A stretch of 64,000 nt of DNA. It comes from Comamonas resistens. GTDB taxonomy: Bacteria; Pseudomonadota; Gammaproteobacteria; Burkholderiales; Burkholderiaceae_C. Both the position numbers and the translations under genes were made by a program. The stretch spans positions 930,001-994,000 of the forward strand of contig NZ_CP125947.1 in assembly GCF_030064165.1 (NCBI RefSeq). Reading direction: 5' to 3'. Shown in pieces: positions 12,523-41,284 of the stretch. The notes beneath the pieces were generated by a model that had not been told where the DNA came from, ran no database searches, and was given only the letters and a program-made list of their open reading frames with translations. How positions within the stretch are numbered: the stretch's first letter is position 1; each line of letters starts with the position of its first letter.

Positions 12523-12588
12523 GAATGCTCCCGAAGTTCAGATTCGAGAGCGAGTGTGGACAGGGTCTGTGTGCCGCCAATGAAGTCT

Positions 12589-12604
12589 GTGAAGGCAGTG
12601 TGAA
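12589..12604 (-). promoter_or_regulatory. cre-tag (CreB binding site) upstream of creD
   Basis: Read on the minus strand the sequence is TTCAC-ACTGCC-TTCAC, an exact match to the known CreB/BlrA tag TTCAC-N6-TTCAC. It is 67 bp upstream of the creD start and in the same orientation, where an activator would act. The regulator genes creB and creC lie next door. Confidence 0.85.
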
Positions 12605-12627
12605 GTCGGCTTCAAATCACTTGGGTC

Positions 12628-12701
12628 TTATGCAGACAAGGGTGTGGCAAGGACTGCTGCCCTTGAGGCGAAGTGCTTGGCCGAGCCTGATTGGCGTAAG
12701 T
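12628..12701. repeat. Dispersed 75-bp intergenic repeat, copy 2
   Basis: The diverged partner of 4088-4162, in the same orientation. It begins CTTATGCAGACAAGG, contains CCTTGAGGCGAAG and ends TTGGCGTAAG. It fills most of the gap between the cre-tag and the creC stop codon. Confidence 0.55.
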
Positions 12702-12705
12702 CTTT

Positions 12706-14160
12706 TCACTTCTCAGGAGCAAAGTCCAGTGAGACGGCAAGACCGGGGTGCAGATTGCGCACGCTCATATAGCCGCCGTGCAAATGCATGATGCGGGTGA
12801 CGATGGACAGGCCCAGTCCCGTGCCGCTGCGCTCGCCATTGGGCCTGGGCGTGGTCAGGAATCGCTCGCCCAGGCGGGCCAGCATGGTTTCGGGGACGCC
12901 CGGCCCCTGGTCGCTGATGGTGATGCGATGCGGCGCCAGTGTGGCCGTGATGCAGCTGCCGTCAGGTGAAAAATCGAGTGCGTTCTGTAGCAGATTGCTG
13001 ATGGCCAGCACGATCAGACCTGCTTCCCAGGGACCGGTGCTGTCCACGCCTTGCAGCTGCAGCGTGATGCCGCGCTGGCTGGCATGGCCGTTCAGGGCCT
13101 GGATGGCTTGTTGAGTGCAGTCCATCAGGCTGCAGCTATGGCTTTTGTCCAGTTGCTGGCGCTGCTCCAGGCGGCTGAGCTGGAGCAACTGGTCGATCAG
13201 GTTTTGCAGGCGCAGGCTCTGGTCGACCACCTGGCGCGCAAACATTTCGCGGTCCTGCGCAGGCAGGTCCTCCTGCAGCAGCTCGCCCGCGCCGCGTATG
13301 GCGGCCACAGGGCTTTTGAGCTCGTGGGTCAGGGCGCGCACATAGCCTTCGATGTAGTCGCGTCCCTCCAGGCGTTTGCGCATGGTGTCCATGGCCAGGG
13401 CCAGCTCGCCCAGCTCGCCAGGCATTTGCGGCACTGCGAGTGCGGGGCTGGCCTGATCGGGGTGAAGAGCCTCGTTGAGCGTGGGTGCCTGTACCTGCTG
13501 GGCATAGCGGCGCAGCCTGCGCACATGGGCCACAAACCACAGGGTCACGGCGCAGCCCACACCAGCCGAGAGCAGCACAAACAGCAGGCCGCCGCGCAGG
13601 ATCTTGCGCTCGGCTCCATCCACGATTTTCTGTACCGAGCGGGAGGGTTTGGAGGCCGTCAGCACTCCGGCAATCCTGCCGTCCACCATGATGGGGGCAG
13701 AGACATGCATGACGCTGCTGGACTCATCGTCCTTGACCGCGCGTGTGGTGCGGGCGCCGTATTCGCCGCGCAGCGTGAGATAGACATCGCGCCAGCGCGA
13801 ATAGTCGGCGCATTCGTCCTTGCCGTCCGAATCAAACAGCACCATGCCTTGTGCATCGGTGACCGTGATGCGCATGTCCAGCGTGGTCTTGCGCGTGTCC
13901 CAGATCCAGGCCTGGATGGGGCGCTGCGTATAGCCCGTCAGCTGCTGGCGGAACTGGCTGTTCTTGCCCGGTTGCAACTGGCCGCTGGCCAGGTCAGGGC
14001 TGGCCAGCGCGGCCAGGGCATAGGCAGTCTCGACCAGAGTGTCCTCCGTCACCTTGCGCACGCTGGGCTTGATCTCGACCATGAAGACGCGCAGCACAAA
14101 AAATGCGGCCAGCCCGTTGATCAGGAAGAAGGCAAAGAACAGGCGCAGGCCCAGGCGCAT
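12706..14160 (-). CDS. creC: Sensor histidine kinase CreC
   Basis: A membrane sensor of 484 residues that phosphorylates CreB. It has membrane segments at about 6-27 and 185-205 flanking a periplasmic sensor domain (RPIQAWIWDTRKTTLDMRIT, VFDSDGKDE-like). A HAMP-like linker follows, then the dimerisation box with His279 (ALTHELKSPVAAIRGA). The ATPase has an N-box (ISNLLQNALDFSP), G1 (ISDQGPGVPE) and G2 (GTGLGLSIV). Its start lies 5 bp after the creB stop, so the two form an operon. Confidence 0.93.
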   Translation of the reverse strand: MRLGLRLFFAFFLINGLAAFFVLRVFMVEIKPSVRKVTEDTLVETAYALAALASPDLASGQLQPGKNSQFRQQLTGYTQRPIQAWIWDTRKTTLDMRITVTDAQGMVLFDSDGKDECADYSRWRDVYLTLRGEYGARTTRAVKDDESSSVMHVSAPIMVDGRIAGVLTASKPSRSVQKIVDGAERKILRGGLLFVLLSAGVGCAVTLWFVAHVRRLRRYAQQVQAPTLNEALHPDQASPALAVPQMPGELGELALAMDTMRKRLEGRDYIEGYVRALTHELKSPVAAIRGAGELLQEDLPAQDREMFARQVVDQSLRLQNLIDQLLQLSRLEQRQQLDKSHSCSLMDCTQQAIQALNGHASQRGITLQLQGVDSTGPWEAGLIVLAISNLLQNALDFSPDGSCITATLAPHRITISDQGPGVPETMLARLGERFLTTPRPNGERSGTGLGLSIVTRIMHLHGGYMSVRNLHPGLAVSLDFAPEK

Positions 14161-14165
14161 GGCAG

Positions 14166-14864
14166 CTAGACGGGCAGGCTCAGGCTATAGCCCAGGCCGC
14201 GGTGGGTGGCGATGATTTCCCTGTCGGGCAGATGCTCGCGCAGCTTGGCTCTCAGGGTTTTGATGTGGGTGTCCACCGTGCGGTCCGTGCTTTCGCTGTC
14301 CAGTCCCCAGATCTGCTCGAGCAGATGCTCGCGGCTCAGAATGCGGCCCGCGCCTTGCATCAGGCATTGCAGCAACTGGTACTCGCGGCGTGTCAGGTCC
14401 AGTGTCTTGGCGTGAACCAGTGCACGCTGACCTTGCTCATCTATTTGAAGTGCTGCCGCTGGCTGGGCTTGCGCTGCAGGCTGAAATTGCCTTAAGCGGC
14501 GCAGCAGGGCGCGTGTGCGGGCCAGCAGCTCGCGCGGGCTGAAGGGCTTGGTCAAATAGTCGTCTGCACCGAGCTCCAGCCCCAGCACCTTGTCCATTTC
14601 TTCACCACGTGCGCTGAGCACCAGAACAGGCGCGATGGAGCCTGCAGAGCGCAGCTCGCGGCACCAGTCCAGGCCGTTGCCGTCGGGCAGGCCCACATCC
14701 ATCAGCAGCACATCAAATGGTCTGCTGCCCCATTGCCGACGTGCGTCGGCAATCAGCAGGCTGTGGGTGACGGCAATGCCCTCGCGCTCCAGCGCATAGC
14801 AGATGGTGCGGGCAATGGCCGGATCATCTTCGAGAAGCAAGACCTGGGGCGCGTTGGCGGGCAT
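14166..14864 (-). CDS. creB: Response regulator CreB
   Basis: An OmpR/PhoB-type regulator of 232 residues. The receiver domain has the acidic pocket LLLEDD, phosphoacceptor Asp56 (LLMDVGLPDGNG) and LTKPFSPREL. The C-terminal winged helix includes LTRREYQLLQCL, VDTHIKTLRAKL and HRGLGYSL. It should bind the cre-tag upstream of creD. It starts 6 bp after rapZ ends, so rapZ, creB and creC may share a transcript. Confidence 0.93.
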   Translation of the reverse strand: MPANAPQVLLLEDDPAIARTICYALEREGIAVTHSLLIADARRQWGSRPFDVLLMDVGLPDGNGLDWCRELRSAGSIAPVLVLSARGEEMDKVLGLELGADDYLTKPFSPRELLARTRALLRRLRQFQPAAQAQPAAALQIDEQGQRALVHAKTLDLTRREYQLLQCLMQGAGRILSREHLLEQIWGLDSESTDRTVDTHIKTLRAKLREHLPDREIIATHRGLGYSLSLPV

Positions 14865-14870
14865 GCGGAA

Positions 14871-15788
14871 TCAACCGGCGGCGGGGGCTGCCAAAAACTG
14901 CTGGGAAACCTGCATGAAGTGACCGCGGAAGTCTAGCGAGCGATGGCGGCGCACCGTGGGCCATGTTTTCTCGAAGTGCCTGGCCAGTGCCTCCACCAGA
15001 TAGACCGAGCGGTGCTGTCCGCCCGTGCAGCCAATGCCGATGGTGACGTAGCTGCGATGATCCTTGGCCAGCAGCGGCAGCCAGCGTTCCAGGAACTGCT
15101 GTATGTCCTGCTGCATCTGCTGCACCTCGGGCAGGTTGCGTAGATAGCTGGCCACCGGCTCGTCCAGTCCGGTCAGAGGGCGCAGGTCTTTCTCGTAGTG
15201 CGGATTGGGCAGCATGCGTACATCGAACACATAGTCTGAGTCCGTGGGCATGCGGTGCTTGAAGCCAAAGGACTGGAACATCAGCGTCATCTGGCTCTCG
15301 GGAGCCTGGATGGTCTGCTTGATATAGCTTTGCAGCTGCGCGGACTTCAGGTCGCTGGTATCGATGACGGTGGAGCGATCGCGCAGCGCACCCAGCAGTT
15401 CTCGCTCCTTGTCGATGTCCTGCACCAGTGCCTGACGCTCTGACACCGAGGGACCCGGCGAAAGCGGGTGACGCCTGCGGGTTTCGGAAAAGCGCCGTAT
15501 CAGGGTGGAGGTGCTGGCGTCGAGAAAGATCAGATGGGGTTGAATGCCCAGTGCCGAGCACAGATGCTCCAGCTGCTCCGGCAACTGGGGCAGGCCCTGG
15601 GCACTGCGTGCATCCATGGCAATCGCCACCTTGTCGTTGCTCTGGCTGAGCTTGAGTTCCACAAAGGCTTGCAGCAGCTCGGGCGGCAGATTGTCCACGC
15701 AGTAATAGCCTGCATCTTCCAGCGCATGCAGTGCAACGGATTTGCCCGATCCGGACATGCCGCTGATCAGAACAAGCTCCATAGACAT
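14871..15788 (-). CDS. rapZ: RNase adapter / nucleotide-binding protein RapZ
   Basis: In E. coli RapZ guides RNase E to the GlmZ sRNA and so controls amino-sugar synthesis. The protein is also a P-loop nucleotide binder. The 305-residue product has Walker A GMSGSGKS (10-17), [12 protein letters not shown] and the C-terminal sensory/RNA-binding segment [19 protein letters not shown]. The start may be Met1 or Met3 (MELVLISG), two codons apart. It is packed between recN (4-bp gap) and creB (6-bp gap). Confidence 0.93.
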
Positions 15789-15792
15789 GATT

Positions 15793-17535
15793 TCAGACTC
15801 CTCTGACTCTGCTGCCCGTTTTGCGGGCCGCAGTCGTCGATTTGTTGTCCCGGAGGCCGGGCGTATTCAGATGGGGGGTGGACGTCAATCTTGCCATGCC
15901 CAGCATTTCTCTGGCATGTGCCATGGTCGCTTCGGACAGGTGCTCTCCGCCCAGCATGCGAGCCATTTCCATTTCGCGCTCCGCGCCTTCCAGGGGGTCC
16001 ACGCTGCTGATCGTGGTGTTGGACTTGGGACGCTTGGTGACGCGGTAATGCTGGTCGGCATAGGCCGCCACCTGGGGCAGATGGGTCACGGCCAGCACCT
16101 GGCGAGATACACCCAGCGAGCGCATGAGGCGACCCACCGTCTCTGCAACGGCTCCGCCGACGCCGGAATCCACCTCGTCAAAAATCAGCGTGCCGGCTTG
16201 GCCCAGTTCACTGGTCGTGACGGCAATTGCCAGCGAGATGCGAGACAGCTCGCCACCCGATGCCACCTTGGCAATCGGTTTGGGGGTTGCGCCAGTATGG
16301 CCTGCGACCAGAAAAGTCACATTGTCCGTGCCTGCAGGGCTGTTGGTCTGGGAGGATTCCAGCTGAACTTCGAAGCGACCGCCTTTCATGCCCAGGCTTT
16401 GCATGGATTGCGTGATGGCACGCGACAGGCGCGGGGCGGCCAGGCTGCGTTGCTGAGAGACCTGACGCGCTTCGGTCTGAAAGCGCTGCAAGGCCGCTTG
16501 CTCCGTAGCGCGCAGACCATCCACATCCACGGCAGCATCCAACTGGCGCAGCTCCTGCTTCCAGCCCTGCAGCAGACTAGGCAGCTCCTGCGGTGTGCGC
16601 TTGTAGCGGCGTGCCAGCTGCATCCAGAGCGACAGGCGCTGATCCAGATCGGCCAGTTGTTCCGGGTCCAGGTCTGCGCGGCGCAAATAGGCCTGCAGTG
16701 AATGGCGAGCATCATGCAGCTGGGCCACGCAGGAGCCCAACACATCGGCGATGTCCTTGAATTCCGGCTCCAGATGTTCCTGATCCTGAAGCATGTGGTG
16801 AGCTCTGCCCAATGGCGTAGCCGCACCGGCATCGTCATCCTCCAGCAACTGCAGGCAGGTCTGGGCGCTGTCCATCAAGGTCTGCGCATGGGACAGTCGC
16901 GTGTGCTGCGCGTTGAGCTCCTCCCACTCATCGTCGCGCGGGGCGAGTTTGTCCAGCTCGGAAATCTGCCATTGCAGGCGTTCACGCTCGCGCTGCAGAT
17001 TGTCCTGGGCTGCCAGGGCCTGCTCCAGTGCCTGGCTGGCCGAGCGCCAGTTGGACCACAGTGTTTTGAGGCCGCTGGTGTCTATGCTTCCGTAGGTGTC
17101 CAGCATGGCGCGCGCCGCATCGGGGCGTGTCAGGCTTTGCCAGGCATGCTGGCCATGGATGTCGATCAGCTGATCGCCGAGCTGGCGCAACTGGGTGGCC
17201 GTAGCCGGGGTGCCGTTGATCCAGGCACGGCTGCGGCCCTGGTTGTCGATCACGCGGCGCAGCAGCAATTCAGGCTCTTGCGCAAAGCCGGCCTCTTCCA
17301 GCCAGGTCTGCAATGAAGCGGGGCAGTCAAATGCCGCGCAGATGTCTGCCTGGTTGCAGCCTTCACGCACAACCTGAGCGTCGGCGCGTGCACCCAGCAC
17401 CAGTTGCAAGGCGTCGAGCATGATGGATTTGCCGGCCCCGGTCTCGCCGGTCAGCACCGTGAAACCTGCCTGCCAGTCCAGATCCAGCGACTGCACGATC
17501 ACAAAGTCCCTCAGGACGATGCGCTTCAAGGCCAT
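15793..17535 (-). CDS. recN: DNA repair protein RecN
   Basis: An SMC-like ATPase that helps double-strand break repair. The 580-residue product has Walker A GETGAGKS (30-37) and a central coiled coil (about 150-360, rich in Gln/Leu/Glu heptads). The ABC signature region is [13 protein letters not shown], Walker B is [12 protein letters not shown], and an H-loop [12 protein letters not shown] follows. It lies 2 bp after nadK, a common pairing. The C-terminal tail (about 555-580) is basic and variable. Confidence 0.95.
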
Positions 17536-19526: not shown

Positions 19527-19603
19527 GGGGCGTTAGCTCAGTTGGTTAGAGCAGAGGACTCATAATCCTTTGGTCGTCGGTTCAAGTCCGCCACGCCCTA
19601 CCA
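19527..19603 (+). tRNA. tRNA with CAT anticodon (elongator Met or Ile2)
   Basis: A 77-nt cloverleaf: acceptor GGGGCGT / ACGCCCT, D-arm GCTCAGTTGGTTAGAGC, anticodon loop CTCATAA (CAT), T-arm with GGTTCAAGTCC and encoded CCA. The anticodon arm and variable loop (TTTGGTCG) resemble the Ile2 tRNA, whose C34 is modified to lysidine, but sequence alone does not settle Met versus Ile2. Its 3' 46 bp are duplicated at 58735-58780, so this is the island attachment gene and it remains intact. Confidence 0.9.
19558..19603 (+). other. attL: island attachment site in the tRNA 3' half
   Basis: These 46 bp, from the anticodon loop to the encoded CCA, occur again exactly at 58735-58780 in the same orientation. 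With the integrase gene just inside, this fixes the island boundaries at about 39.2 kb. Confidence 0.93.
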
Positions 19604-19708
19604 TTTTTTCTAATGGAAACAACAGATTAGGCTTGCACTGTTGTAGCGAAGGCTATTCACCATAGCCCCTGAGGTAACAGTTTCGGTACATTGAACCGAA
19701 GGCACCTC

Positions 19709-20764
19709 ATGGCAAGCATCATCAAAACCCCCTCTGGCACCTGGAAGGCCATCATCCGCAAGCGCGGCTTTCCCACCACCATCAAGACTTTCCGCGTCAA
19801 GCGAGATGCCGATGATTGGGCTCGCACGACTGAGGATGAAATGGTGCGCGGCTTGTACATTCGTAGACAGTCCGCCGATCGCATGACGTTGGTCCAGGCT
19901 CTGGAGCGCTATGCGGCTGAAGTCACTCCCACCAAAAAGCATTACACCCAGCTCGGTGAGCGATCGCATCTTGCTGCCTTGACGAAGTTCTTTGGGGCGT
20001 ACTCCATGAGTGCAGTGACGCCCGAGCTGGTAGCTAAATTCCGTGATCAGCGTTTGGCTGATGGCAAGGCTGCCAACACAGTGCGGCTTGACTTAGCGCT
20101 GTTAGGCCATCTGTACGCTGTGGCTATGCGTGAATGGGGTGTAGGGCTCGTTTACAACCCGGTGCGCTTGATTAGGAAGCCTACTCCTGGCGCTGCCCGC
20201 GACCGGCGTTTGGATGCTGGTGAAGAAGCTCGATTGTTTGCCGCAGTGGCAGCACATAGCAATCCCATGTTGAAGTGGATTGTGGAGCTGGCTATTGAGA
20301 CTGGAATGCGCCGATCCGAAATAACTTCATTAAAGCTAGAGCACGTGGACATGGAGCGGCGTATCGTCAGACTGCTTGACACTAAAAATGGTGAGCCACG
20401 AACCGTTCCTCTCAGTCGGCGGGCTACCGAAGTGATGCAAGAGGCTATTTCTAACCCTGTTCGTCCTGACGATACCCGTCTTATATTTTTTGGAGAACCT
20501 GGCCGGGATGGTCAGAGAAGACCATGGCAATATGATCGAGTTTGGCGCCAAATTTTGACGAAGAAAGGGTTCCGTGACCTTCACTTTCACGATCTTCGCC
20601 ATGAGGCTGTAAGCCGTCTAGTTGAGCAAGGTTTCAGCGATCAAGAGGTGTCTGCGATCAGTGGGCACAAATCCATGCAGATGCTGAAGCGCTATACCCA
20701 CTTAAGGGCAGAAGATTTGGTTGCGAAGCTGGACAAGAGAAGTGAATCAAACTTACTCGATTGA
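19709..20764 (+). CDS. int: Tyrosine-recombinase integrase of the island
   Basis: Catalyses integration and excision at the tRNA site. The likely product is 351 residues from the ATG at 19709 (MASIIKTPSGTWKAIIRKRG); a start 6 codons earlier is possible. An N-terminal arm-binding beta domain (1-60) and a SAM-like core-binding domain (about 65-160) precede the catalytic domain. The catalytic domain has Arg in ETGMRRSEITSL, HDLRHEAVSRL, GHKSMQML and the Tyr in KRYTHL. All catalytic residues are present, so it looks intact. An inverted repeat TTCGGT / ACCGAA lies just before the start (19682-19700). No excisionase gene is evident in the 230 bp downstream. Confidence 0.93.
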   Translation: MASIIKTPSGTWKAIIRKRGFPTTIKTFRVKRDADDWARTTEDEMVRGLYIRRQSADRMTLVQALERYAAEVTPTKKHYTQLGERSHLAALTKFFGAYSMSAVTPELVAKFRDQRLADGKAANTVRLDLALLGHLYAVAMREWGVGLVYNPVRLIRKPTPGAARDRRLDAGEEARLFAAVAAHSNPMLKWIVELAIETGMRRSEITSLKLEHVDMERRIVRLLDTKNGEPRTVPLSRRATEVMQEAISNPVRPDDTRLIFFGEPGRDGQRRPWQYDRVWRQILTKKGFRDLHFHDLRHEAVSRLVEQGFSDQEVSAISGHKSMQMLKRYTHLRAEDLVAKLDKRSESNLLD

Positions 20765-20994: not shown

Positions 20995-22068
20995 CTATGC
21001 CAATTCTTCTCTCGAAGCCTCGGTCTGAAGTAGTCGACCGCCTGTCGAGATGTTGAATAGTACCCTCGACGCACGTTCAAGCGTGATATATGGCGCGCCC
21101 GTTCCTCGATAGGCAGACGCAAAAGTAGGCCAGTCGGCGAGCACCATTTGCCTTAACAACTCAACCTCGGTCTCCGACTCGCAAGCCACGCCAAGAACAC
21201 AGTCCGACAAGGTCACTCGTCGACCTTTGCCGAGCACGCACAACTTACCCGGCGTGACGAGCCCGACGCGAGGGAAGAGGAGAGCTGGACCAGTAAGGAC
21301 CGCCCCCACGACATACACCCCGGAGCTCGTTACGGCGCCATTCTGCAAGTGGTTCGTGTGGACCAACGGTTTTCCTGCTCGGGACGAGACTACTTTGCGG
21401 GAGTGCATCTGAACGCAGCCGCGCACAATCGCAAGCGTTGGTGGGCTGGCAACATGCTCGGAGGCAGCCAAAGGTATGCTCAACTTCGTCATACGAACTA
21501 GGCATGTGCGTGCCCTTACGCCCTGGAATGCAGACCGAGCGTTGTCGCGAATCACCTCGACTTTGAACTGCTTGTGCAGAGCCCTCCACACAGGCTCATC
21601 ATGTTTACTCACCAGACATCCGTCAGGTAGAACTGCCAAGATGGCGCCATCCGTCCTCAGGAACGGAATGCTGTTGACGACAAACGCCATTGCAATGCTG
21701 GCGTGAAATATCTCATCTCCAAACGCAACCTCGAAAGTCTGTCGGTTTCTACGCGAGAACGGAGGGTTCAGCAGGACCAGGTCGACGCCTGTAAGGTGAT
21801 TCCGGAGCGAAGACGACCGTACAGAGCGTGGGTTCAGGAAGTCCGAACATGCTGTCCGCCACTTCGGCCGGCTCTTCCGCAGGCTGCCCACCGATGCTGC
21901 GGAGACGTCATTGGCGATCATCAAAGCCGCTGGCCAGCGCCGCTCGGCGGCCAGCAACAGGCTGCCTTCGCCACATGCAAAGTCGGCAATCGTAAGCGTA
22001 CGACGATGCAACGTTGCGAGGCCAACCAGTGCATCGGCAAGTTCGGGCGATGTGTAGAAGCGGTCCAT
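20995..22068 (-). CDS. NPPF-type (N6-adenine) DNA methyltransferase-like protein of the five-gene system
   Basis: A SAM-dependent methylase fold of 357 residues. It has SAM motif I DFACGEGS (29-36), ANDVSAASVG and the catalytic motif LLNPPF (99-104), typical of N6-adenine or N4-cytosine methylases of the N6_Mtase type. The C-terminal half (LFPRVGLVTPGKLCVLGKGR ... APYITLERASRVLF) resembles the region seen in Type I/BREX-like methylases that follows the catalytic domain. There is no obvious target-recognition domain, and it is much shorter than BREX PglX. It is the last gene of the operon and overlaps the preceding stop by 1 bp. Whether it methylates DNA as a self-marking step is inference. 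Confidence 0.75.
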   Translation of the reverse strand: MDRFYTSPELADALVGLATLHRRTLTIADFACGEGSLLLAAERRWPAALMIANDVSAASVGSLRKSRPKWRTACSDFLNPRSVRSSSLRNHLTGVDLVLLNPPFSRRNRQTFEVAFGDEIFHASIAMAFVVNSIPFLRTDGAILAVLPDGCLVSKHDEPVWRALHKQFKVEVIRDNARSAFQGVRARTCLVRMTKLSIPLAASEHVASPPTLAIVRGCVQMHSRKVVSSRAGKPLVHTNHLQNGAVTSSGVYVVGAVLTGPALLFPRVGLVTPGKLCVLGKGRRVTLSDCVLGVACESETEVELLRQMVLADWPTFASAYRGTGAPYITLERASRVLFNISTGGRLLQTEASREELA

Positions 22069-23048
22069 TAGTACCGCCCCACTCCGGTCGTCATTGAGTT
22101 GCCGCCCGCGCCTGCGGTGATGGCGCCAACGTGATAGACCAAGAGCCTATCTAGGCCGTCAGTTCGGCCCTCCTTACGAATCGGGTTGTCATAGATGAGC
22201 TCAATGCGATTCGGTGACGTCAACGCGAACATCACCGCCCCCAGTGCGTGTGGCTTCGTGCCAATCATGGCAACCTTCAACGTGGAGTTGGGATGGTACT
22301 GAGCCAATTCCTGCAGAAGGTAGAAGCAACTGAAGGGGCAGTTCGCCGGCACGAACTCAATGTGGTGCCAGGCGCTCGTTTCCTCTAGCGCCGCCCTGTT
22401 CCCCATGTAGGCTTCGAAGACGTACCAGGGTTTGAAGCCTGGGATGCCCACCACTGGCACCATCCGCTCGTTGCTTGGCTGCACTTGCTCGATGACATGA
22501 CGAAACCTTGCACCTTCGAACCCCAGCAGAGGCACAAAGACTGATTCCTCCGTTGTGGAAATTGTTGCGAAGCCCGGCATTGGCGCGATACCTGCGATGC
22601 GTGCACTGAGGTCGTAGATTTGGCCTTCAAGCGGTGCTGCACTTCGCTTGTACCGATACGGTTCCACATAGACAGCACGCACCTCCATCCTTGCGGCGAT
22701 GGCTGCCCGGATGAGCGCAGCCCAGGTCGGATGGCTTAGGCCGGTGATGTCGACATAGAGGACTCGACCGGTTCCCAATGGAGCAAGCAGCCTCGAAAGC
22801 GATGCGGCGCTCCGCAGGAAGAATTCCTCCTCGCCTCCAGAAATCTGGAAACCAGAGACGGATTCAGTGGTGACCTCGATGAACTGAACATCCTTGCAGC
22901 TCTGTTGCCATTGTCCGGTGTGACCGCTGCGGTCTTCACTGCTGACGCGATAGATGTACACGCTTCCAGGCACGGGCGTAAACAGGTTGACCGACTCGAA
23001 GGTGTCAGTAAGAATCGGCTCGCGCTTCAACTCACGCATAGAAATCAC
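22068..23048 (-). CDS. Uncharacterised alpha/beta protein of the five-gene system
   Basis: I do not recognise a named family. The 326-residue protein looks like two Rossmann-like halves. The first has VLYVDITGLSHPTWAALI followed by MEVRAVYVEPYRYKRS. The second has ERMVPVVGIPGFKPWYVFEAY and LKVAMIGTKPHALGAVMFAL. This arrangement recalls nucleotide-sensing folds such as CARF-like domains, but the resemblance is only in pattern. There is no signal peptide, no membrane segment and no clear metal site. It overlaps the ATPase stop by 17 bp and the methylase start by 1 bp, so translation should be coupled. It may be a sensor or adaptor. Confidence 0.6.
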   Translation of the reverse strand: MISMRELKREPILTDTFESVNLFTPVPGSVYIYRVSSEDRSGHTGQWQQSCKDVQFIEVTTESVSGFQISGGEEEFFLRSAASLSRLLAPLGTGRVLYVDITGLSHPTWAALIRAAIAARMEVRAVYVEPYRYKRSAAPLEGQIYDLSARIAGIAPMPGFATISTTEESVFVPLLGFEGARFRHVIEQVQPSNERMVPVVGIPGFKPWYVFEAYMGNRAALEETSAWHHIEFVPANCPFSCFYLLQELAQYHPNSTLKVAMIGTKPHALGAVMFALTSPNRIELIYDNPIRKEGRTDGLDRLLVYHVGAITAGAGGNSMTTGVGRY

Positions 23049-24912
23049 CGAACAACTGCATCTGATCGGGAAGGTCTGCTTCAGACTCCCTGTGGTTGAG
23101 CTTTAAGACGGCTTCGATGCCCTCTCTAGGCTTGTCCACCAAGCTCAACAGGTTCGCCGTCGACAGCAGAATTTTTCGTTTCTTTCGGTGGCTGAAGACA
23201 AAGAAGGGCGCAAAGATGGGGTGAATCATGTAGTCGTAGGCCTTGGTGTCCCGCTCGTCCAGTAACTTGCTGCCGGCATACCTGACCAACGCCAAATGCA
23301 TCACCGAATGCTTGAGCAGGTCCATTGCCTTCCCGTCACTATCGGACTCCTGCTCCTCGCGGAGGTGGAACTGGTTCGCCTCAGGCGTGTGTCCAGCTGG
23401 CGACTCAGCCAGAACGCCAAAGACCCGGCCGAGGCTTAAAAGTAGCTTCGTTAACCGCGCGCCGTCGACGCTGAGACCCTCCAGCTCGGATAGGTTCTTC
23501 CGCCCGACTGCTTGGGCAGCTCGGGTCTGAACTTCGGGGCTGATGGGCAATAGCGGCTCGCCACCTTCTTCGTCGTGAAGGAGAAGCGCTGAGTGCACCA
23601 GCTCAAGAAGGTAGCGGATGTTGCCTTCACAGAGCGCCAGGTAAACATCCCAGCCACTGTAGTACTTTCGGATGCCCCGCTTGCCGTTGCGAATAGCGAA
23701 CAGTGACGCATGAAAGTGGTTGTTGAAACGGTCCTTGCTGGAAGATTTTTCCGAAAGCCACCCATCAATCTCGTCGGACAGCGTAGTCGTTCCCTTGTGA
23801 GAACTCGCCCAATAGTCCAAAAAATACTGAACGCCAATCGGAAGCGCCTTGGCAGCCTCGAGCTGCTCTGGAGAGCTGGCTGCTGCAATCGCCTTGCGAA
23901 CCCGAGCTTCTTGACCCTTGTCAATCAGGCGCGCGGCCTCATTGAGTTCATCCAGCTTAGGAAACAGTGAAGGGAAATCTGCAACAACGGCAGTTCCCTC
24001 AACTGCTCCCTGGTATCGCGCCGACAGAACGCCCTCAGCGAACGATTTGAAGCGAGATTCCGTCAGCATCTCCGCGATGGAGATGCGTGCGTAGTCAGCC
24101 GGAGAGGTCAACTGCTCGTTCTCATTCAACGTTGATCGCTCTCGCCATCCAAGCTCTCGCACACCGACCTTAAATGTGTAGGCGCTCTGCGAGTGCTTGA
24201 TGATGGTGTTGAGGATGCGCTGCTGATAATCCTCAAAGTTTTCAAATTCGTCGATGAGAAAATAGAACTGCTTGCCTGCCAACTCCTTCGTACCGAGTAG
24301 CGCGGAGGCAAGCGTGTCAACTGGCGTGCCCTGCATTGACAGGAAGGTCGGTGGCGAATCTATGATGCTGTTGATAGATGCTTCAAACACCAACATCTGA
24401 AGCCTGACTTCCTGGGCCAAGTCAGCGAGGCGGCCAGTGGACTTGAGGTTTAGGGTCGCTCGGAACGCGGCTAATTCGTTCGGGGCCAGTGACAGATCTC
24501 GACCCGTCTGAAGTTCGTACCAGCAGGCAAACTCCAGGAGCTGCATGCAGAACACCAAGTTTAGATAGTGGGCAAAGCAAGCGCGCCACCTTTCTTCAGA
24601 CAGCTCCGGTCCCCGGAAGGCCGTCACGCGGTTGGTGTTGACGCGGTGGTAGAGGCCAAAGAACTGCCAAGTGTCGATGACCTCCTTGTTAGATTTAGCT
24701 AAGGCGAATTGACCTTGATACGAGAGTCCCTGCAGGACAGTCGTCTTCCCCGTGCCCCGTCCTCCAATAAGTACACAAGGGCGGTTCGTCTTCAGTAAGT
24801 CGAAGTACCCCGGCACCGAAAATAAATCGAACAGCTGCTCACGAAGCCATTCAGCCTTGTATAGGCCAAGCACCGTACTCAGCTTATCGATAGACCCGTT
24901 CTGGCTTGTCAT
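23032..24912 (-). CDS. ORC/CDC6-like AAA+ ATPase of the five-gene system
   Basis: A 626-residue P-loop ATPase. Walker A is GGRGTGKTT (about 50-58) and Walker B is FLIDEFENFED (about 215-225). A helical C-terminal region follows, with several His/Trp-rich segments and an HR-type motif near 340-420. The order and the DEFEN Walker B suit ORC/CDC6-like ATPases found in predicted prokaryotic conflict modules. The C-terminus (MIHPIFAPFFVFSHRKKRK) has a basic patch that could contact nucleic acid. It begins 1 bp after the PRTase stop and is the largest gene of the operon, so it is probably its energy-driven switch. Confidence 0.72.
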   Translation of the reverse strand: MTSQNGSIDKLSTVLGLYKAEWLREQLFDLFSVPGYFDLLKTNRPCVLIGGRGTGKTTVLQGLSYQGQFALAKSNKEVIDTWQFFGLYHRVNTNRVTAFRGPELSEERWRACFAHYLNLVFCMQLLEFACWYELQTGRDLSLAPNELAAFRATLNLKSTGRLADLAQEVRLQMLVFEASINSIIDSPPTFLSMQGTPVDTLASALLGTKELAGKQFYFLIDEFENFEDYQQRILNTIIKHSQSAYTFKVGVRELGWRERSTLNENEQLTSPADYARISIAEMLTESRFKSFAEGVLSARYQGAVEGTAVVADFPSLFPKLDELNEAARLIDKGQEARVRKAIAAASSPEQLEAAKALPIGVQYFLDYWASSHKGTTTLSDEIDGWLSEKSSSKDRFNNHFHASLFAIRNGKRGIRKYYSGWDVYLALCEGNIRYLLELVHSALLLHDEEGGEPLLPISPEVQTRAAQAVGRKNLSELEGLSVDGARLTKLLLSLGRVFGVLAESPAGHTPEANQFHLREEQESDSDGKAMDLLKHSVMHLALVRYAGSKLLDERDTKAYDYMIHPIFAPFFVFSHRKKRKILLSTANLLSLVDKPREGIEAVLKLNHRESEADLPDQMQLFGDFYA

Positions 24913-24913
24913 G

Positions 24914-25834
24914 TTATCTCTGCTTCAGAAGCGGCTTCCAGCCATTCTTTTGGTGTGTGAAGATAGGCAGCACCGCGTCTGGCCACCCATGCTCGAAGGC
25001 AAGCGCCAAGCCAAGCCCTCGGTAGCCCGTCCAACAGCCTTCTTGTCCCTCGCGAAAGGGGATACCCGCCCTCTCGCTTGCGCGTTTGACGAAGAGTGGG
25101 CCATCCTCTTGCATGTCATCCCGCCATATCACGGAGTTAACAGACAAGGCGCTGTAGGTTTCTGGCAGTACGTGGGCTGGTACTACCTTCACCCAAGGAC
25201 AGTTGTCCGAGATGTGCTTACGGCCGCGCTCGGTGCAAATCAGTGGACAGTAATAAAATCCCACAGTGCCTGAGCCGATAGCGCTGACCAGCGAGTTGAA
25301 TGACGCGGAGGCGAAGCCAGACAGCCAGTGATTCTTGGTCCAGGTGTCCTGGAACTGCTCACCCGAACCTACGAAGTCGTCCACAAAGACGACATTTCCG
25401 CGCGGTGTTGCCCGCAGCTTCTCCAGTGCCTTCGCCGGCGAAAGAAGCTGCTCTTCCTGCACACCAAGCTTGTTGCGCGCCAGCCTGGTGAAGATGAAGC
25501 CGCTGTCAGCGTCGCTGCTGTAGTTGCCCTCGGCGCGAACGACAATGACCGACTCTAGGAACTGGGTCCACTGGGTGCTGGCGGAGAAGTAGTTGTTTTT
25601 ATTCTGAACTACGAGCTGCGAGAGGTTCTGGAAGGCCGCCTGGAACAATGCCTCAATCAGCTCATCCGCGAAGTAGGTGAAGCCCTCCAACAAGCGGATT
25701 GCGTATTTTTGGTCAGCCTCATCGAAGTTCGTGAGCCAGCCCTTGGGGTCAAAACGGGCTGCACGAGGCCACAGCTGCGCGTTAACAAAGAACTTCCAGT
25801 TCTCGGCAACCGTAGGTGGTAACTCAACGGTCAC
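24914..25834 (-). CDS. Phosphoribosyltransferase-like protein of the five-gene system
   Basis: The 306-residue protein carries a clear type I PRTase PRPP-binding loop, VVFVDDFVGSGEQ (about 147-160): hydrophobic strand, two Asp and the SG turn. A helical N-terminal cap lies at about 1-110. Such PRTase-like proteins paired with ORC/CDC6-like ATPases have been proposed as conflict effectors, as I recall. The substrate is unknown; it could modify a nucleotide or nucleic acid using PRPP, or act as a non-catalytic binder. Its start overlaps the dUTPase-like gene by 11 bp. Confidence 0.7.
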   Translation of the reverse strand: MTVELPPTVAENWKFFVNAQLWPRAARFDPKGWLTNFDEADQKYAIRLLEGFTYFADELIEALFQAAFQNLSQLVVQNKNNYFSASTQWTQFLESVIVVRAEGNYSSDADSGFIFTRLARNKLGVQEEQLLSPAKALEKLRATPRGNVVFVDDFVGSGEQFQDTWTKNHWLSGFASASFNSLVSAIGSGTVGFYYCPLICTERGRKHISDNCPWVKVVPAHVLPETYSALSVNSVIWRDDMQEDGPLFVKRASERAGIPFREGQEGCWTGYRGLGLALAFEHGWPDAVLPIFTHQKNGWKPLLKQR

Positions 25835-26528
25835 GCATTACCTCGGCATACTTCTTTGAAAGCTGACCGTAGAGCTCGACTGCGAAGGTGGTCGGGTTCT
25901 TGTCCAAGCCCGCCGCGAACTCAACCAACCACACGTTGTCCTCGCGGCCGTCCCAGGTCTTGATGTACGTGCCCGCCTTGTAACCATGGTCCTGCCGGAA
26001 CGCGTTGAGCACGTTCTTCCCGACGTACATCTCGTAGAGGGTTTGCTCTTCTAGGCCGACGGCACTGGCGAGCTCGCAGAACCCAGCTAGGTCGAAGCGC
26101 CTCGTCGTCAAGACGAACGTCGCAAAAGCTTCCACCAGAGTGATGCGTGCCGTGGAGTCGTCAACGCCTGCACCGCTGCGCTTTCCGTAGACGACGTAGG
26201 CACTGAGGAGCTGCGTTGTTGCCGCGTTCGGCGTCCCGTGCTGCTGCAGAAGCTCGCTCAACCCGAAGTGAAAGATGTCGACCAGCTCCAAGTGGACCTG
26301 AAGGATGTCTGGCGATTGATGCTTCCACCACTTCCAGCCGATGTGGTCCACGAGCTCCGCACATTCCGTCCAAATCGCCCGGAACCAAGCGTTGTTCGCG
26401 TTGCGCCAGTCGGGACGAATCTTGCTATTGATGCCATCCTGAAGCTCGAGCATGGACTGCAGCCTGCTCTTGAAAATGACGTCGTCTACACCATTCATAT
26501 CGTTAAGCCTAATATTTGTCCAGGGCAT
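25824..26528 (-). CDS. Dimeric (all-alpha) dUTPase-like nucleotidohydrolase
   Basis: The 234-residue, all-helical product has the metal-binding pattern of dimeric dUTPases/MazG-like NTP pyrophosphatases: TECAEL (Glu55, Glu58), GWKWWKH (64-70) and ELVDIFHF (Glu81, Asp84). These enzymes cleave dUTP or dUDP to dUMP. They are common in phages and some bacteria. The start may be Met1 (26528) or Met11 (26498). It is the first gene of the operon, so the promoter should lie in the 370-bp gap to its right. It overlaps the PRTase-like gene by 11 bp, which ties nucleotide hydrolysis to PRPP chemistry. Confidence 0.75.
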   Translation of the reverse strand: MPWTNIRLNDMNGVDDVIFKSRLQSMLELQDGINSKIRPDWRNANNAWFRAIWTECAELVDHIGWKWWKHQSPDILQVHLELVDIFHFGLSELLQQHGTPNAATTQLLSAYVVYGKRSGAGVDDSTARITLVEAFATFVLTTRRFDLAGFCELASAVGLEEQTLYEMYVGKNVLNAFRQDHGYKAGTYIKTWDGREDNVWLVEFAAGLDKNPTTFAVELYGQLSKKYAEVMRDR

Positions 26529-28041: not shown

Positions 28042-29349
28042 ACGGTTCGGACTTCAATTGACGGAGATGCGGTCTCCGAACTGAATGGTAAAGCGGGTCA
28101 GCGCAGCCTTCCAATCCCGGATGGGCATGGTCCACTTCTGACTGATGTTGCGCAGGGCCAGATAGAACAGTTTGGTCAGCGCTTCGTCACTGGGGAACGA
28201 GCCCCGGTTCTTGGTCAGCTTCCTCAGGCTCATGTTGACCGACTCGATGGCGTTGGTGGTGTAGATGACCTTGCGGATTTCGGGTGGGTAGTCAAAGAAC
28301 GGAATCAGCCGGCTCCAGTTCCTGCGCCAGGACTGGCCGATGGGTTGGTACTCGGCATCCCAGCGGGCCTCGAATTCACCGAGCATCAGCTCGGCCTCCT
28401 CGGCGGTGGTTGCCGTGTAGATGCGTCGCAGGTCGGCGGCCACTTCTTTGCGACGCTTCCACGAGACGTAGTTCAGGCTGTGGCGCACCATGTGCACGAT
28501 GCACAGTTGCACCACCGCCTTGGGGAATACCGCCTCAATGGCGTCGGGGAAGCCTTTGAGCCCGTCGACGCAGGCGATGAAGATGTCCTGCACGCCCCGG
28601 TTGCGAAGTTCGGTGACGACCTGCAGCCAGAACTTGGCACCCTCGGTTTGCGCCAGCCACAGGCCCAGCACCTCCTTGTCACCCGTCATGGTGATGCCGA
28701 TGGCCAAGTACACCGCCTTGACCCGCACAGCGCCCTCGCGCACCTTCACATGGATGCAGTCCAGATAGACGATGGGGTAGATTGCATCGAGCGGGCGGGC
28801 TTGCCAGGTCTTGACCTCATCGGCCACGGCGTCGGTCACCGAGGAAATCAGGCTGGGCGAGACCTCGGTGCCGTACATCTCCTCCAGGTGGGCCTGTATC
28901 TCGCGCACCGTCATGCCGCGGGCGTACAGCGAGATGATTTTGTCGTCGAAGCCGGCCCAGCGGGTCTGGTGCTTGGGGATGAGCTGGGGCTCGAAGCTGC
29001 CATGGCGGTCACGTGGCACCTCGATGGGCAACTCGCCGAAATCGCCCTTGAGGGTCTTCTTGCTCTTGCCATTGCGGGTGTTGCCAGTGGTGTTGGCTAC
29101 CGCTTCGTTGCGTTCGTGGCCCAGATGCTCGGTCAGTTCGGCGTCTAGGGCTCGCTCCACCAGCAGCTTGGTCAACTGCTTGAGCAGGCCGTTCTCGCCG
29201 ATGAGGTCTTCGGGCTTCTTGTAGTTGGCCAGCAGGCCAGACAGCAGTTCTTCGGGTACGTCGTGTTTCTTGATGCTCATTGTGCTTACGGACAGGCCGG
29301 CTTGCGCCGGCGGTTGATTGTCCGTTTACACAAAATTCTGCACACCCTC
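28018..29349 (-). mobile_element. IS256-family insertion sequence
   Basis: A 1332-bp element with 28-bp imperfect inverted repeats sharing TTTTGTGTAAACGG at their inner ends. It is flanked by an exact 8-bp target duplication CCAAGGGC (28010-28017 and 29350-29357). It encodes one transposase and landed at the 3' end of the trfA-like gene. Confidence 0.93.
28054..29280 (-). CDS. tnpA: IS256-family transposase
   Basis: A mutator-type DDE transposase of 408 residues. It has VYLDCIHVKVREGAVR with the first catalytic Asp, ACVDGLKGFPDAIEAVFPKA with the second, the CIVHMVRHSL segment, and TTNAIESVNMSLRK with the catalytic Glu. The length is typical and the frame is intact, so the element could be active. 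The exact IS name cannot be assigned without a database. Confidence 0.95.
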   Translation of the reverse strand: MSIKKHDVPEELLSGLLANYKKPEDLIGENGLLKQLTKLLVERALDAELTEHLGHERNEAVANTTGNTRNGKSKKTLKGDFGELPIEVPRDRHGSFEPQLIPKHQTRWAGFDDKIISLYARGMTVREIQAHLEEMYGTEVSPSLISSVTDAVADEVKTWQARPLDAIYPIVYLDCIHVKVREGAVRVKAVYLAIGITMTGDKEVLGLWLAQTEGAKFWLQVVTELRNRGVQDIFIACVDGLKGFPDAIEAVFPKAVVQLCIVHMVRHSLNYVSWKRRKEVAADLRRIYTATTAEEAELMLGEFEARWDAEYQPIGQSWRRNWSRLIPFFDYPPEIRKVIYTTNAIESVNMSLRKLTKNRGSFPSDEALTKLFYLALRNISQKWTMPIRDWKAALTRFTIQFGDRISVN

Positions 29350-32292: not shown

Positions 32293-33172
32293 GGCTCTGT
32301 TGCAAAGATTGGCGGCAGTCAGAGGTAGGCTGTCGCTCTGCGCCGATCAGGCGGCTGCTGCGAAATGGTGGTTGAGCATGCCCATGGCCTCCGTCAGCGC
32401 CGAGGGCCCAATGCCAAAAGCTCTCTCCACAAGGCGCACCTCGCCCCTGATGCCGGGCTGCAGGCACCAGGGGCGAGCCTGTCCTTTGCGCAGGGCTCGC
32501 ATGACTTCGAATCCCTTGATCGTGGCATAGGCCGTGGGGATCGATTTGAAACCGCGCACCGGCTTGATCAGTATCTTGAGCTTTCCGTGATCGGCCTCGA
32601 TCACGTTATTGAGATACTTCACCTGCCGGTGGGCCGTCTCCCGGTCCAGCTTTCCTTCGCGCTTCAATTCGGTGATCGCTGCACCATAGCTCGGCGCTTT
32701 GTCGGTATTGAGCGTGGCAGGCTTTTCCCAGTGCTTCAGGCCTCGCAGGGCCTTGCCCAGGAACCGCTTCGCTGCCTTGGCGCTGCGGGTCGGCGACAGG
32801 TAGAAATCGATCGTGTCGCCCCGCTTGTCGACTGCCCGGTACAGGTAGGTCCACTTGCCCCGCACCTTGACGTAGGTTTCATCCAGGCGCCAGCTCGGAT
32901 CAAAGCCACGCCGCCAGAACCAGCGCAGCCGCTTCTCCATCTCCGGGGCGTAGCACTGGACCCAGCGATAGATCGTCGTATGGTCGACCGAAATGCCGCG
33001 TTCCGCCAGCATTTCCTCAAGGTCGCGATAGCTGATCGGATAGCGACAATACCAGCGCACCGCCCACAGGATCACATCACCCTGGAAATGGCGCCACTTG
33101 AAATCCGTCATCGTTCCGTCCGTCCAATCTCCGCCAAGCATGCTCAAGCTTCACGATTTTTGCAACAGAGCC
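32293..33172 (-). mobile_element. IS6100 (IS6 family)
   Basis: Exactly 880 bp with terminal repeats GGCTCTGTTGCAAA / TTTGCAACAGAGCC. The 8-bp flanks (CGCTGTGT and GGCCAGCG) differ, so it has no target duplication. It joins two unrelated fragments: the broken usp gene and a broken efflux gene. This is typical of IS6-family cointegrate and deletion events. Confidence 0.95.
32347..33111 (-). CDS. tnpA: IS6100 transposase
   Basis: An IS6-family DDE transposase of 254 residues, starting MTDFKWRHFQGDVILWAVRW. The catalytic residues are in RLDETYVKVRGKW (Asp), NTDKAPSYG (Asp) and NNVIEADHGKLK (Glu). A longer frame starts 12 codons earlier, but MTDFKWRHF is the usual start. It looks intact. Confidence 0.95.
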   Translation of the reverse strand: MTDFKWRHFQGDVILWAVRWYCRYPISYRDLEEMLAERGISVDHTTIYRWVQCYAPEMEKRLRWFWRRGFDPSWRLDETYVKVRGKWTYLYRAVDKRGDTIDFYLSPTRSAKAAKRFLGKALRGLKHWEKPATLNTDKAPSYGAAITELKREGKLDRETAHRQVKYLNNVIEADHGKLKILIKPVRGFKSIPTAYATIKGFEVMRALRKGQARPWCLQPGIRGEVRLVERAFGIGPSALTEAMGMLNHHFAAAA

Positions 33173-34693: not shown

Positions 34694-36091
34694 TCAACCG
34701 GAAATGCCCGGCGGGTCCGCCTGTTCCCAGCCTCCCAAGGCCTTGTACAACTCCACCGCATTGACCAGCCGGCGCTGTTGCAGCCGGATGAACTCCTGCT
34801 CGGATTCGAACAGGCTGCGCTGCGCTTCCAGCATTTCCAGGTAGCTGGCCACGCCGCGTTCGTAGCGTCTTTCGGTCAGGCGCTGGCGGTCGCGGTCGGC
34901 GTCGCGGACCTTGCGCTGGGCGTCGATCTGGGCGCGCAGCGTGTCGCGCGCGGACAGGGCGTCGGCCACTTCGCGGAAGGCTTGCTGGATGCTGCCTTCG
35001 TACTGCGCCACCGCGATGTCCTTGCGCGTTTCGGCCAGCGACAGGTTGGCGCTGTTGCGCCCGGCGTTGAAGATGGGCAGCGTCAGCTTGGGCACGAAGC
35101 TCCAGGTGCCCGTGCCTGAACCGAACAGGTCCGAGAAGCTGCCGGCGGTGGTGCCGATGTCCGTCGTCAGCTGCACCGACGGAAAGAACGCCGCGCGCGC
35201 CGCGCCGATGTCGGCGTTGGCGGCGCGCAGCGTGTCTTCGGCTTGGCGCAGGTCCGGGCGCCGGACCAGCAGCGTGGACGGCAGGCCGGCCGCCAGCGGC
35301 GTCAGGCTTTGGCTTTCCAGCGTGACGGCGTCGGCGTCGGGCGGCAGGGAAAAGTCGCCCGCCAGCAGGCCCAGCGTATGCACGGCCTGGCGGTACTCGC
35401 GGCTCAGCTCGGCGTGCGTGGCGCGCGACGACTCCACCAGCATCTGCGCGGTGCGCAGTCCCACGGCCGTTTCCAATCCAGCGTCATAGCGGCGCTGCGT
35501 GAGTTTGAGCGAGGCCTCGCGCACCGCCAGGGTGCTCTCGGTCAGGCGCAACTGCTCGGCCAGCGAGCGCTGGTTGAAATAGGCCGTCGCCGTTTCCGAG
35601 ACCAGCGACAGCGTGGCGGCGCGGTGCGCCTCCTCGCTGGCCAGGTAGCGCGACAAGGCGGCGTCGCTCAGGCTTTTCACGCGGCCGAAGAAATCCAGCT
35701 CGAACGCGGAAATGCCGACGGCGGCGCGGTAGCGGTCCGCCACGGGCATGCGCGGCTGGCCGGGTTCGGCGTCGCGGCCGCGGCTGTACTCGCCCACGCC
35801 GTCGATGGACGGCAGGCGGTCGGCCTGTTGCACGCCATAGAGCGCGCGCGCTTCCTGGATGCGGAGCGCCGCCACCCGCAGGTTGCGGTTGTTCTTCAGC
35901 GCGGCTTCGATCCAGGCTTGCAGCGCCGGGTCGTTGAAGTAGCCGCGCCAATCCTGCGGCATGGCCGCCAGGCCTTCGGCGGCGGGCGTGTCATAGGCCT
36001 GCGGGACCGGCGCGGCCGGGCGTTCGTACTTGGGGGCCAGCGAGCAGCCGGCCAGGGCCAGCGCAAGCAGGGTCATTGCCATAGCCTTCAT
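34694..36091 (-). CDS. RND efflux outer-membrane factor (OprM/NodT family lipoprotein)
   Basis: The 465-residue product has a lipoprotein signal (LLALALAGC-SLAP) and two outer-membrane-factor repeats (about 60-250 and 260-455), including LRVAALRIQEARALYGVQQADRLPS and RPDLRQAEDTLRAANADIGAARAAFFPS. It forms the outer-membrane channel of the tripartite pump. Its start overlaps the RND gene stop by 4 bp. It is the third gene of an adaptor-pump-channel operon of the MexAB-OprM layout and looks complete. Confidence 0.92.
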   Translation of the reverse strand: MKAMAMTLLALALAGCSLAPKYERPAAPVPQAYDTPAAEGLAAMPQDWRGYFNDPALQAWIEAALKNNRNLRVAALRIQEARALYGVQQADRLPSIDGVGEYSRGRDAEPGQPRMPVADRYRAAVGISAFELDFFGRVKSLSDAALSRYLASEEAHRAATLSLVSETATAYFNQRSLAEQLRLTESTLAVREASLKLTQRRYDAGLETAVGLRTAQMLVESSRATHAELSREYRQAVHTLGLLAGDFSLPPDADAVTLESQSLTPLAAGLPSTLLVRRPDLRQAEDTLRAANADIGAARAAFFPSVQLTTDIGTTAGSFSDLFGSGTGTWSFVPKLTLPIFNAGRNSANLSLAETRKDIAVAQYEGSIQQAFREVADALSARDTLRAQIDAQRKVRDADRDRQRLTERRYERGVASYLEMLEAQRSLFESEQEFIRLQQRRLVNAVELYKALGGWEQADPPGISG

Positions 36092-39225: not shown

Positions 39226-39231
39226 TGCGGT

Positions 39232-40443: not shown

Positions 40444-40530
40444 TTTTAAAATTGTCGTGGTGTGGCCGCAGGGGGCCGTGGTGGGGAAAGGCGCCGACTT
40501 TCCCGGTGGGGAAGCGAGTCTATCATTTAA

Positions 40531-41181
40531 GAAAACTGCGAAAAGCGCACCTAGCCCGCGCAATGCATCATCCAGCCGTAACAGAACGAATGGTTTGATG
40601 CGAACCGGCTTTCCGGTCCCGCCATGGCTGTGATGAGTCTCCTTGAGGAAAATGCAGGCAAGCAGGAACGCGAACCCGTTGAGAAGGGCGGCGGCGATAA
40701 ACGGGGCATGAGCAGAGATACCACCGAGCATGCCACCAAGTGCTGGCCCGGCAATCATGCCCGCCCCATAACAGGCCCCCATGTAGCCGAACCAGCGTGC
40801 GCGAGAACCTTCCCCCGTCGAATCGGCAATGGTTGAGGCTGCTACAGCTCCGGTTGCGCCCGTGACGCCGGACACGAGTCGGCCGATATAGAGCACCCAT
40901 AAGACCGGCGCTGATGCCATAATCGTGTAATCGACTGCGGCTCCTGCAAGAGAAGCCAGAAGTACCGGACGCCGACCGTAAGAATCCGAAAGCTGTCCAA
41001 GCATGGGCGCGAAGACGACCTGCATCAATGCATAGAGCGACAGCAAGGCACCATAGTGTCCAGCGACCTGCTCTGCTGGCACAAGCTCACGCAGAAGCGT
41101 CGGAAGGACGGGCATGATGAGGCCGAGACCCATGGCGTCAAGACCCACGATCAGCAGGGCAATGATGGCAGAGCTGCGCAC
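40531..41181 (-). pseudogene. tet(G): Truncated tet(G) tetracycline efflux gene fused to the RND adaptor frame
   Basis: The first 217 codons match Tet(G) (MRSSAIIALLIVGLDAMGLG, YGRRPVLLASLAGAAVDY, RLVSGVTGATGAVAA) up to GALFAVF. There the sequence switches to the DNA upstream of the RND adaptor. The remaining 170 or so residues of the 12-helix transporter are missing, so Tet(G) activity should be lost. The break leaves the frame open into the adaptor gene. Confidence 0.93.
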
Positions 41182-41212
41182 CTGAAACTCCAGCGCCGCT
41201 CAATGGAGCGAC

Positions 41213-41257
41213 TTTATCAACGATAAGGAGATGGAAATATAACTTATCGGTGATAAA
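41213..41257. promoter_or_regulatory. tetO: Two TetR(G) operators between tetR(G) and truncated tet(G)
   Basis: Palindromic tet operators TTTATCAACGATAAG (41213-41227) and CTTATCGGTGATAAA (41243-41257) lie in the divergent promoter region. They should place both tetR(G) and the tet(G)-RND transcript under tetracycline-inducible control. Confidence 0.85.
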
Positions 41258-41284
41258 TTGTCAAGCACTGGCGAAGGAACGTGA

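Follow-up and report, generated by a model that had tools for sequence, protein, structure and literature searches.

Why does a dUTPase gene belong to a compact operon that otherwise encodes a phosphoribosyltransferase (PRTase), an ATPase, a putative nucleotide sensor and a DNA methylase, and what might such an operon act on? The question is raised by a stretch of 64,000 nucleotides from Comamonas resistens (contig NZ_CP125947.1, positions 930,001 to 994,000; here called the window), in which five open reading frames on the minus strand, overlapping or 1 bp apart, occupy positions 20995-26528. The protein classes have already been named by others; the part worth testing is the place of the dUTPase, which appears to have been filled convergently by enzymes that control dUTP and thymidylate. 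When a constant core attracts unrelated enzymes that belong to one pathway, there is a basis for guessing and testing the chemistry of an unknown enzyme, and here these enzymes hint at what the system acts on.

The first gene of the operon encodes a dimeric, all-alpha dUTPase (25824-26528; PF08761, 1.4e-26), the accessory of the system. It is followed by a PRTase-CE protein, the predicted effector (24914-25834; PF24390, 2.1e-43), with a phosphoribosyl pyrophosphate (PRPP) loop, FVDDFVGSGEQF, an ORC-CDC6-like AAA+ ATPase (23032-24912; PF24389, 1.9e-140), a tandem-CARF protein of 326 aa recognized by a PADLOC profile as CARF6 and predicted to sense a nucleotide ligand (22068-23048), and an N6 DNA methylase with an NPPF motif (20995-22068; PF02384, 4.7e-07; PF05175 (MTS), 6.7e-07). 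The dUTPase and PRTase genes overlap by 11 bp, the PRTase and ATPase genes are separated by 1 bp, and the CARF and methylase genes share 1 bp. The overlap between the ATPase and CARF genes is 17 bp from the GTG start, or 8 bp from an ATG three codons later, where the CARF homologues in the alignment begin. An earlier note on this DNA had described the same five tightly spaced genes and quoted motifs for the dUTPase, the PRPP loop, the P-loop ATPase and the NPPF methylase; the reading frames and spacings are confirmed, every motif is found in the translations, and Pfam matches dUTPase_2, PRTase-CE, ORC-CDC6-like and N6_Mtase in turn. Purifying selection is apparent on all five genes, which are free of stops, with ratios of nonsynonymous to synonymous substitution (dN/dS) of 0.05-0.18 against L002 and L003, several dS values being above 1 and close to saturation.

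Does the operon recur as a unit? Scanning one-genome-per-species data with the CARF profile yields 40 loci, which span beta-, gamma- and alphaproteobacteria, Actinomycetes, Planctomycetota, Terriglobia, Myxococcia, Nitrospiria and Ignavibacteria. The PRTase-ATPase-CARF-methylase set is complete in 35 of them, and the remaining five are cut by a contig end (L007, L040) or lack genes (L031, L032, L035). Gene order is nearly fixed; L012, L017 and several plasmid versions begin with the methylase, which in L046 lies behind the core on the opposite strand. This recurrence rules out a chance gene cluster: the four genes are a conserved core, and the dUTPase is an accessory to it. The earlier note would have been refuted had its genes not recurred together; four of the five do recur, and the alpha-helical dUTPase is restricted to a single ATPase clade.

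The accessory place was followed in 53 loci: L002-L041, seven selected records (L044-L050), L133-L137 (five from the first eight rows) and the window, with L043 dropped, as well as L111 (the same locus as L034), and truncated loci retained. An enzyme of dUTP or dTMP metabolism lies beside the core in 23 of these, namely 15 of the 40 CARF-scan loci (the scan taken alone), three of the seven selected records, four of the five loci L133-L137, and the window. Three families are involved. The alpha-helical dUTPase is found at 11 loci (the window, L002-L006, L008-L010, L044 and L050), which a branch with full support sets apart in the ATPase tree; a beta-barrel dUTPase is present in L016, L017, L023, L026, L030 and L034; and ThyX occurs in L016, L027 and the rhizobial plasmids L048, L133, L134, L135 and L136. 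No accessory gene is more than 0.61 kb from the nearest core gene, and the catalytic motifs are kept, except in the split ThyX of L133. Three of them, the beta-barrel dUTPase genes of L016 and L034 and the ThyX gene of L135, are on the opposite strand and are thus neighbours rather than operon members. In about 376 kb of distal flanks of the same loci, taken at distances above 3 kb from the PRTase-CARF stretch, no dUTPase or ThyX family member was found, by profile hidden Markov models built from the accessory genes themselves and hence not independent of them; one weak match (8e-4) fell in the outgroup L117.

Mapped on the ATPase tree, the beta-barrel dUTPase requires four changes and the state without an accessory 10, at least seven of the latter on well-supported branches when DCD-like genes are counted as accessory. 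The tree was built by a quick method from 50 rows, without L133-L137; L048, L113 and L120 have long branches, and L030 stands in its own group through a cross-hit. We read the accessory slot as convergent recruitment of one function, the lowering of dUTP and the raising of dTMP. A limited literature search, which supports no claim of absence from print, gave no earlier description of such a slot. The DCD-like genes of L022 (4684-5472) and L024 (5056-5670; PF22769), also beside the core, were rejected as dCTP deaminases, since the catalytic residues are seemingly absent, and are kept apart; with them the count would be 25 of 53. Two of the three DCD-like sequences end in hydrophobic segments, and these domains are possibly membrane-bound nucleotide sensors.

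The dUTPase of the window itself matches the solved dUTPases 2cje, 2yay and 1w2y and retains the E..E, ELVDIFHF and GYK.G.Y motifs, and it scores 116.6 bits against NCBIfam dUTPaseEpsil, below the equivalog cut-off of 300. The same genome encodes a beta-barrel dUTPase (PF00692) elsewhere (C1:1351713), and PF08761 exceeds its cut-off in only one of 41 genomes searched, the window's own. The operon enzyme is therefore an extra and probably specialised copy.

What are the core proteins likely to do? The PRTase-CE protein matches PF24390 with 149.5 bits, against a curated cut-off of 27, and is predicted to adopt a PRTase fold with an intact catalytic DD in the PRPP loop. Its closest folds are uracil PRTases, but the purine enzyme HGXPRT comes within 1 Z of them and a uracil-specific identity was dropped for that reason. 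PADLOC labels the protein 'PRTase_III-A'. PRTase-CE is a named effector family for which we know of no published substrate. The ATPase scores 469.8 bits against PF24389 (cut-off 27), with GGRGTGKTT as Walker A and LIDEFENF as Walker B, and finds weak matches only in a PDB sequence search. The conflict class of PRTase-like and ORC-like proteins, described in the earlier note as already predicted, does exist as two named Pfam families. The methylase matches PADLOC MTase_II (3.6e-15) and contains FACGEG, which we take to be its S-adenosylmethionine motif. A 2017 study discusses PRTase domains in mobile-element conflicts (PMC5512222), and in the DefensePredictor paper PRTase is among the abbreviations explained under the figure of validated systems (PMC13092281).

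The fourth protein, which had been described as an unknown alpha/beta protein, proves to be a member of the CARF6 family. It is without any Pfam match, whereas the PADLOC CARF6 model PDLC01913 gives 3.4e-116 and 386 bits; CARF6 is said to stem from Makarova et al. 2020. The predicted structure, which the earlier note had proposed to obtain, is a tandem CARF of Rossmann type resembling Csm6, Card1 and Can1, and the structure comparison also gives a SAVED match. Searches of PDB sequences with the CARF profile, the PRTase profile and the methylase gave no match. CARF domains have been proposed as nucleotide-ligand sensors (2014 CARF paper, PMC4012209), and on the strength of its modelled fold the window protein is likely to be such a sensor within the conserved core. 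One further candidate, P0060, a fusion of a CARF with a truncated PRTase, probably arose by misassembly or deletion and was left unused.

How far the parts can be exchanged is seen in regions retrieved through the ATPase and PRTase families. ATPase and CARF are accompanied by a C5 methylase and HD-CE in L112, by HD-CE in L114 and by a calcineurin-like phosphoesterase (metallophosphoesterase) in L113; none of these three loci, few as they are, carries a dUTP/dTMP enzyme. In L048 the methylase is of the N6_N4 type. L120 combines PRTase-CE, the ATPase and a weak CARF match (3e-5) with flanking SIS/HAD and PfkB-type proteins, and these sugar-phosphate enzymes, which stand where other loci have the methylase, are possibly a clue to PRPP chemistry. 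The ATPase-CARF pair thus looks like a constant switch to which effector, modification enzyme and pool enzyme are exchangeable attachments. PRTase-CE also works elsewhere: among 13 further regions found with its profile, a recognised ORC-CDC6-like ATPase is present only in L111, L116 and L120.

How could these parts act together? Our tentative reading, to which we give a little less than an even chance, is that the operon is an island-borne system against phages or mobile DNA, marked by methylation, switched by ATPase and CARF, destroying nucleotides through its PRTase and sparing the host through its accessory. The N6 methylase would mark resident DNA. The ATPase and the tandem-CARF protein would form the sensing and switching unit, as suggested by their folds and by the fact that the pair stays together while effectors change; the ATPase might recognise DNA that is foreign, unmarked or replicating, and a nucleotide ligand might be what the CARF protein reads. 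Once switched on, PRTase-CE would cleave nucleotides at the base-sugar bond and so starve replication. The accessory dUTPase would remove dUTP and yield dUMP, the thymidylate precursor, and may thereby spare the host the dUTP/dTTP imbalance created by a pyrimidine-draining effector. Because a beta-barrel dUTPase or ThyX fills the same place elsewhere, what these versions have in common is probably a requirement for little dUTP and ample dTMP. The earlier note had suggested a nucleotide-based defence in which altered dNTP or PRPP levels, or DNA marks, might trigger the ATPase; the nucleotide-based part of this idea gains from the unrelated enzymes of the same pathway that replace the dUTPase in some other lineages. 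The note had missed the tandem CARF, and with it a likely sensor in the core. A bolder and rather unlikely extension is that the core is an immune pathway of uracil and thymine nucleotides, in which pyrimidine (deoxy)nucleotides are the substrates of PRTase-CE, the ligand of CARF6 is a pyrimidine nucleotide or derivative instead of cyclic oligoadenylate, and dUTPases and ThyX were recruited independently to set the dUMP/dTMP balance that is sensed and attacked. Should the main reading be right, CARF sensing, so far associated mainly with cyclic oligoadenylate and nucleases, would be linked with the regulation of dUTP and thymidylate pools, and the search for the PRTase-CE substrate would have a definite starting point.

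Could the dUTPase be a weapon instead of a safeguard? The enzyme, the beta-barrel form included, might be a second effector that turns dUTP or broader dNTPs into monophosphates and feeds them to PRTase-CE, so that pyrimidine deoxynucleotides are fully destroyed. Some MazG-clan enzymes do convert broader dNTPs to monophosphates, and dGTPase and dCTP deaminase are known dNTP-depletion defences; in the window the gene adjoins and overlaps that of the PRTase, a PADLOC dGTPase match lies in one flank, and the DefensePredictor paper names a dUTPase among its predicted, untested defence domains (PMC13092281). The matched PDB enzymes, however, carry dUTPase titles. ThyX, where it occupies the slot, is a source of dTMP and drains no nucleotide; host sparing was chosen over a co-effector for that reason, and this second role seems unlikely. 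A different proposal places uracil at the level of sensing: DNA that contains dU or is unmodified would trigger the ATPase, while dUTPase or ThyX keep host DNA free of uracil. In its favour, the methylase and the dU-lowering enzymes both alter the appearance of self-DNA, and that dUTPase and ThyX each lower DNA uracil is established biochemistry. Yet a Pfam search of the ATPase identified no uracil-binding domain and the majority of the 53 loci carry no accessory, so that we consider uracil sensing quite improbable.

It is also conceivable, with a similarly low probability, that the operon serves the mobile element itself as a regulatory or stabilising module, for example in replication or maintenance control, and is no anti-phage defence. 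Its ATPase family is ORC/CDC6-like, many relatives are plasmid-borne, and it resides in an island beside an integrase, where a gene close by gives a weak match, below the cut-off, to a replication initiator (RPA, 2.1e-4). Such a role fits poorly with loci in many unrelated contexts, with the use of HD-CE or a phosphoesterase in the effector place, and with the broken-looking copies in L008, L031, L133 and L134, which point to a dispensable trait. Finally, the CARF protein could respond to cyclic oligonucleotides that CBASS or type III CRISPR systems supply in trans, the operon being an auxiliary effector of those systems. Can1 likewise holds two CARF domains, PADLOC's name for the PRTase is 'PRTase_III-A', and the CARF structure matches SAVED and Csm6. 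Against this, the PADLOC matches listed for 107 flanking proteins contain no cyclase or Cas10 family; these were 104 of the 184 listed plus three accessory genes, submitted to Pfam and PADLOC as alignments and drawn from loci other than the alpha-dUTPase loci and L045-L047 and L049. The listings gave at most 25 families per search, and 25 of 40 for a set of 46 proteins. A simple exact-repeat test on the fetched loci, moreover, turned up a GC-rich repeat in L035 but nothing resembling a CRISPR array, and we regard a trans-acting signal as doubtful. For the set of 46 flanking proteins, the matches listed include BrxL, PglZ, dGTPase, AriA, mad3 and mad8, one or two of each, which favours a defence role for the operon.

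How widely is the operon distributed? Its close form is rare among genomes: in a sample of 385 from the class of G103 it is found in G103, the centre of the sample, alone, and 61 genomes around the window's own gave that genome and one partial match from the same genus. At the level of the phylum sample, the ATPase exceeds its cut-off in 14 of 398 genomes and the PRTase in 18 of 398. Conjugative plasmids often carry more distant versions. The CARF protein matches 147 plasmid records, 128 of them from Klebsiella, where the matches listed show about 25% identity over roughly half of the protein; the one Klebsiella plasmid inspected has the order methylase-PRTase-ATPase-CARF. Its stretch is present in four of 5426 E. 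coli genomes, in each case on a plasmid and in a strain whose name marks it as a derivative of C600 or J53, which we read as laboratory transconjugants. CARF and ATPase scans of viral contigs gave no confirmed match, and the only two 'phage' records with matches look like a bacterial chromosome contig (efp, cstA, tRNA-Val). L002, recorded as an Akkermansia muciniphila metagenome-assembled genome, carries an operon 83-92% identical to that of the window at the protein level, on a contig that is probably misbinned. Core genes look broken in L006, L008, L031, L133 and L134 (split methylase, split ATPase, CARF stop), as is usual for dispensable defence genes, though sequencing error is possible. 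Behind the ThyX-bearing version of L135, a Bradyrhizobium plasmid, lie WYL, nucleotidyltransferase and multiubiquitin/ThiF genes (11775-16708).

The setting in C. resistens is a genomic island of about 39.2 kb in a tRNA-Met gene (19527-19603, plus strand). A 46-bp exact direct repeat, identical to the 3' end of the tRNA, marks an attL-like site (19558-19603) and an attR-like site at the distal end (58735-58780, both plus strand), and a genome search finds it only at these two places. The tyrosine integrase (19691-20764, plus strand; PF00589, 8.3e-34) ends 230 bp from the operon, tail to tail. The operon is the first cargo behind it; the earlier note had placed it directly behind the integrase. 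The same island probably contains an integron, in which an attI-type/aminoglycoside-leader RNA (RF02912, 46213-46283) adjoins a 319-aa Phage_int_SAM_4 integrase (46373-47332). Other cargo includes an outer-membrane efflux protein, an RND pump (1045 aa) and MFS/HlyD-type transporters (34694-43332), a Tn3-family transposase (55184-58150) and an IS240-type DDE protein (32347-33147). An IS256-family transposase lies at 28054-29280 of the window, in a stretch 99.8% identical to a Comamonas testosteroni plasmid.

How does the operon compare with known systems? Its closest relatives are the predicted conflict systems of PRTase-CE, ORC-CDC6-like and HD-CE proteins (PF24390, PF24389, PF24391), of which two window proteins are clear members and whose HD-CE occupies the effector place in related loci. 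The three are consecutive Pfam families, reportedly all originating in the study of nucleotide-targeting effectors by Nicastro et al. 2023. Within CARF6 the window protein has no visible fused effector. It shares the CARF fold with the type III CRISPR ancillary effectors Can1, Card1 and Csm6, and its two-CARF chain is Can1-like; it differs in that it lacks a nuclease part, PRTase-CE is a separate protein, and the five genes include neither a Cas gene nor the CD-NTase or Cas10 cyclase of CBASS and type III CRISPR. As in type II restriction-modification, there is a methylase, but the other four genes match no nuclease family that could provide the partner endonuclease, and an ordinary restriction-modification system was rejected, with room left for a novel nuclease. 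MADS and BREX likewise pair a DNA methylase with a P-loop ATPase, whereas the window operon gives weak MADS matches only (mad2, 9.2e-12; mad8, 4.7e-4), short of the mad1-mad8 set, and contains no PglZ, kinase or other core gene of either system. The available parts of a BREX survey (PMC12839542) and an NAD paper (PMC9503650) hold nothing on the five-gene operon. Finally, dNTP-depletion defences based on dCTP deaminase or dGTPase also employ enzymes of nucleotide metabolism; in the systems described here, by contrast, dUTPase and ThyX are accessories beside a sensor-effector core.

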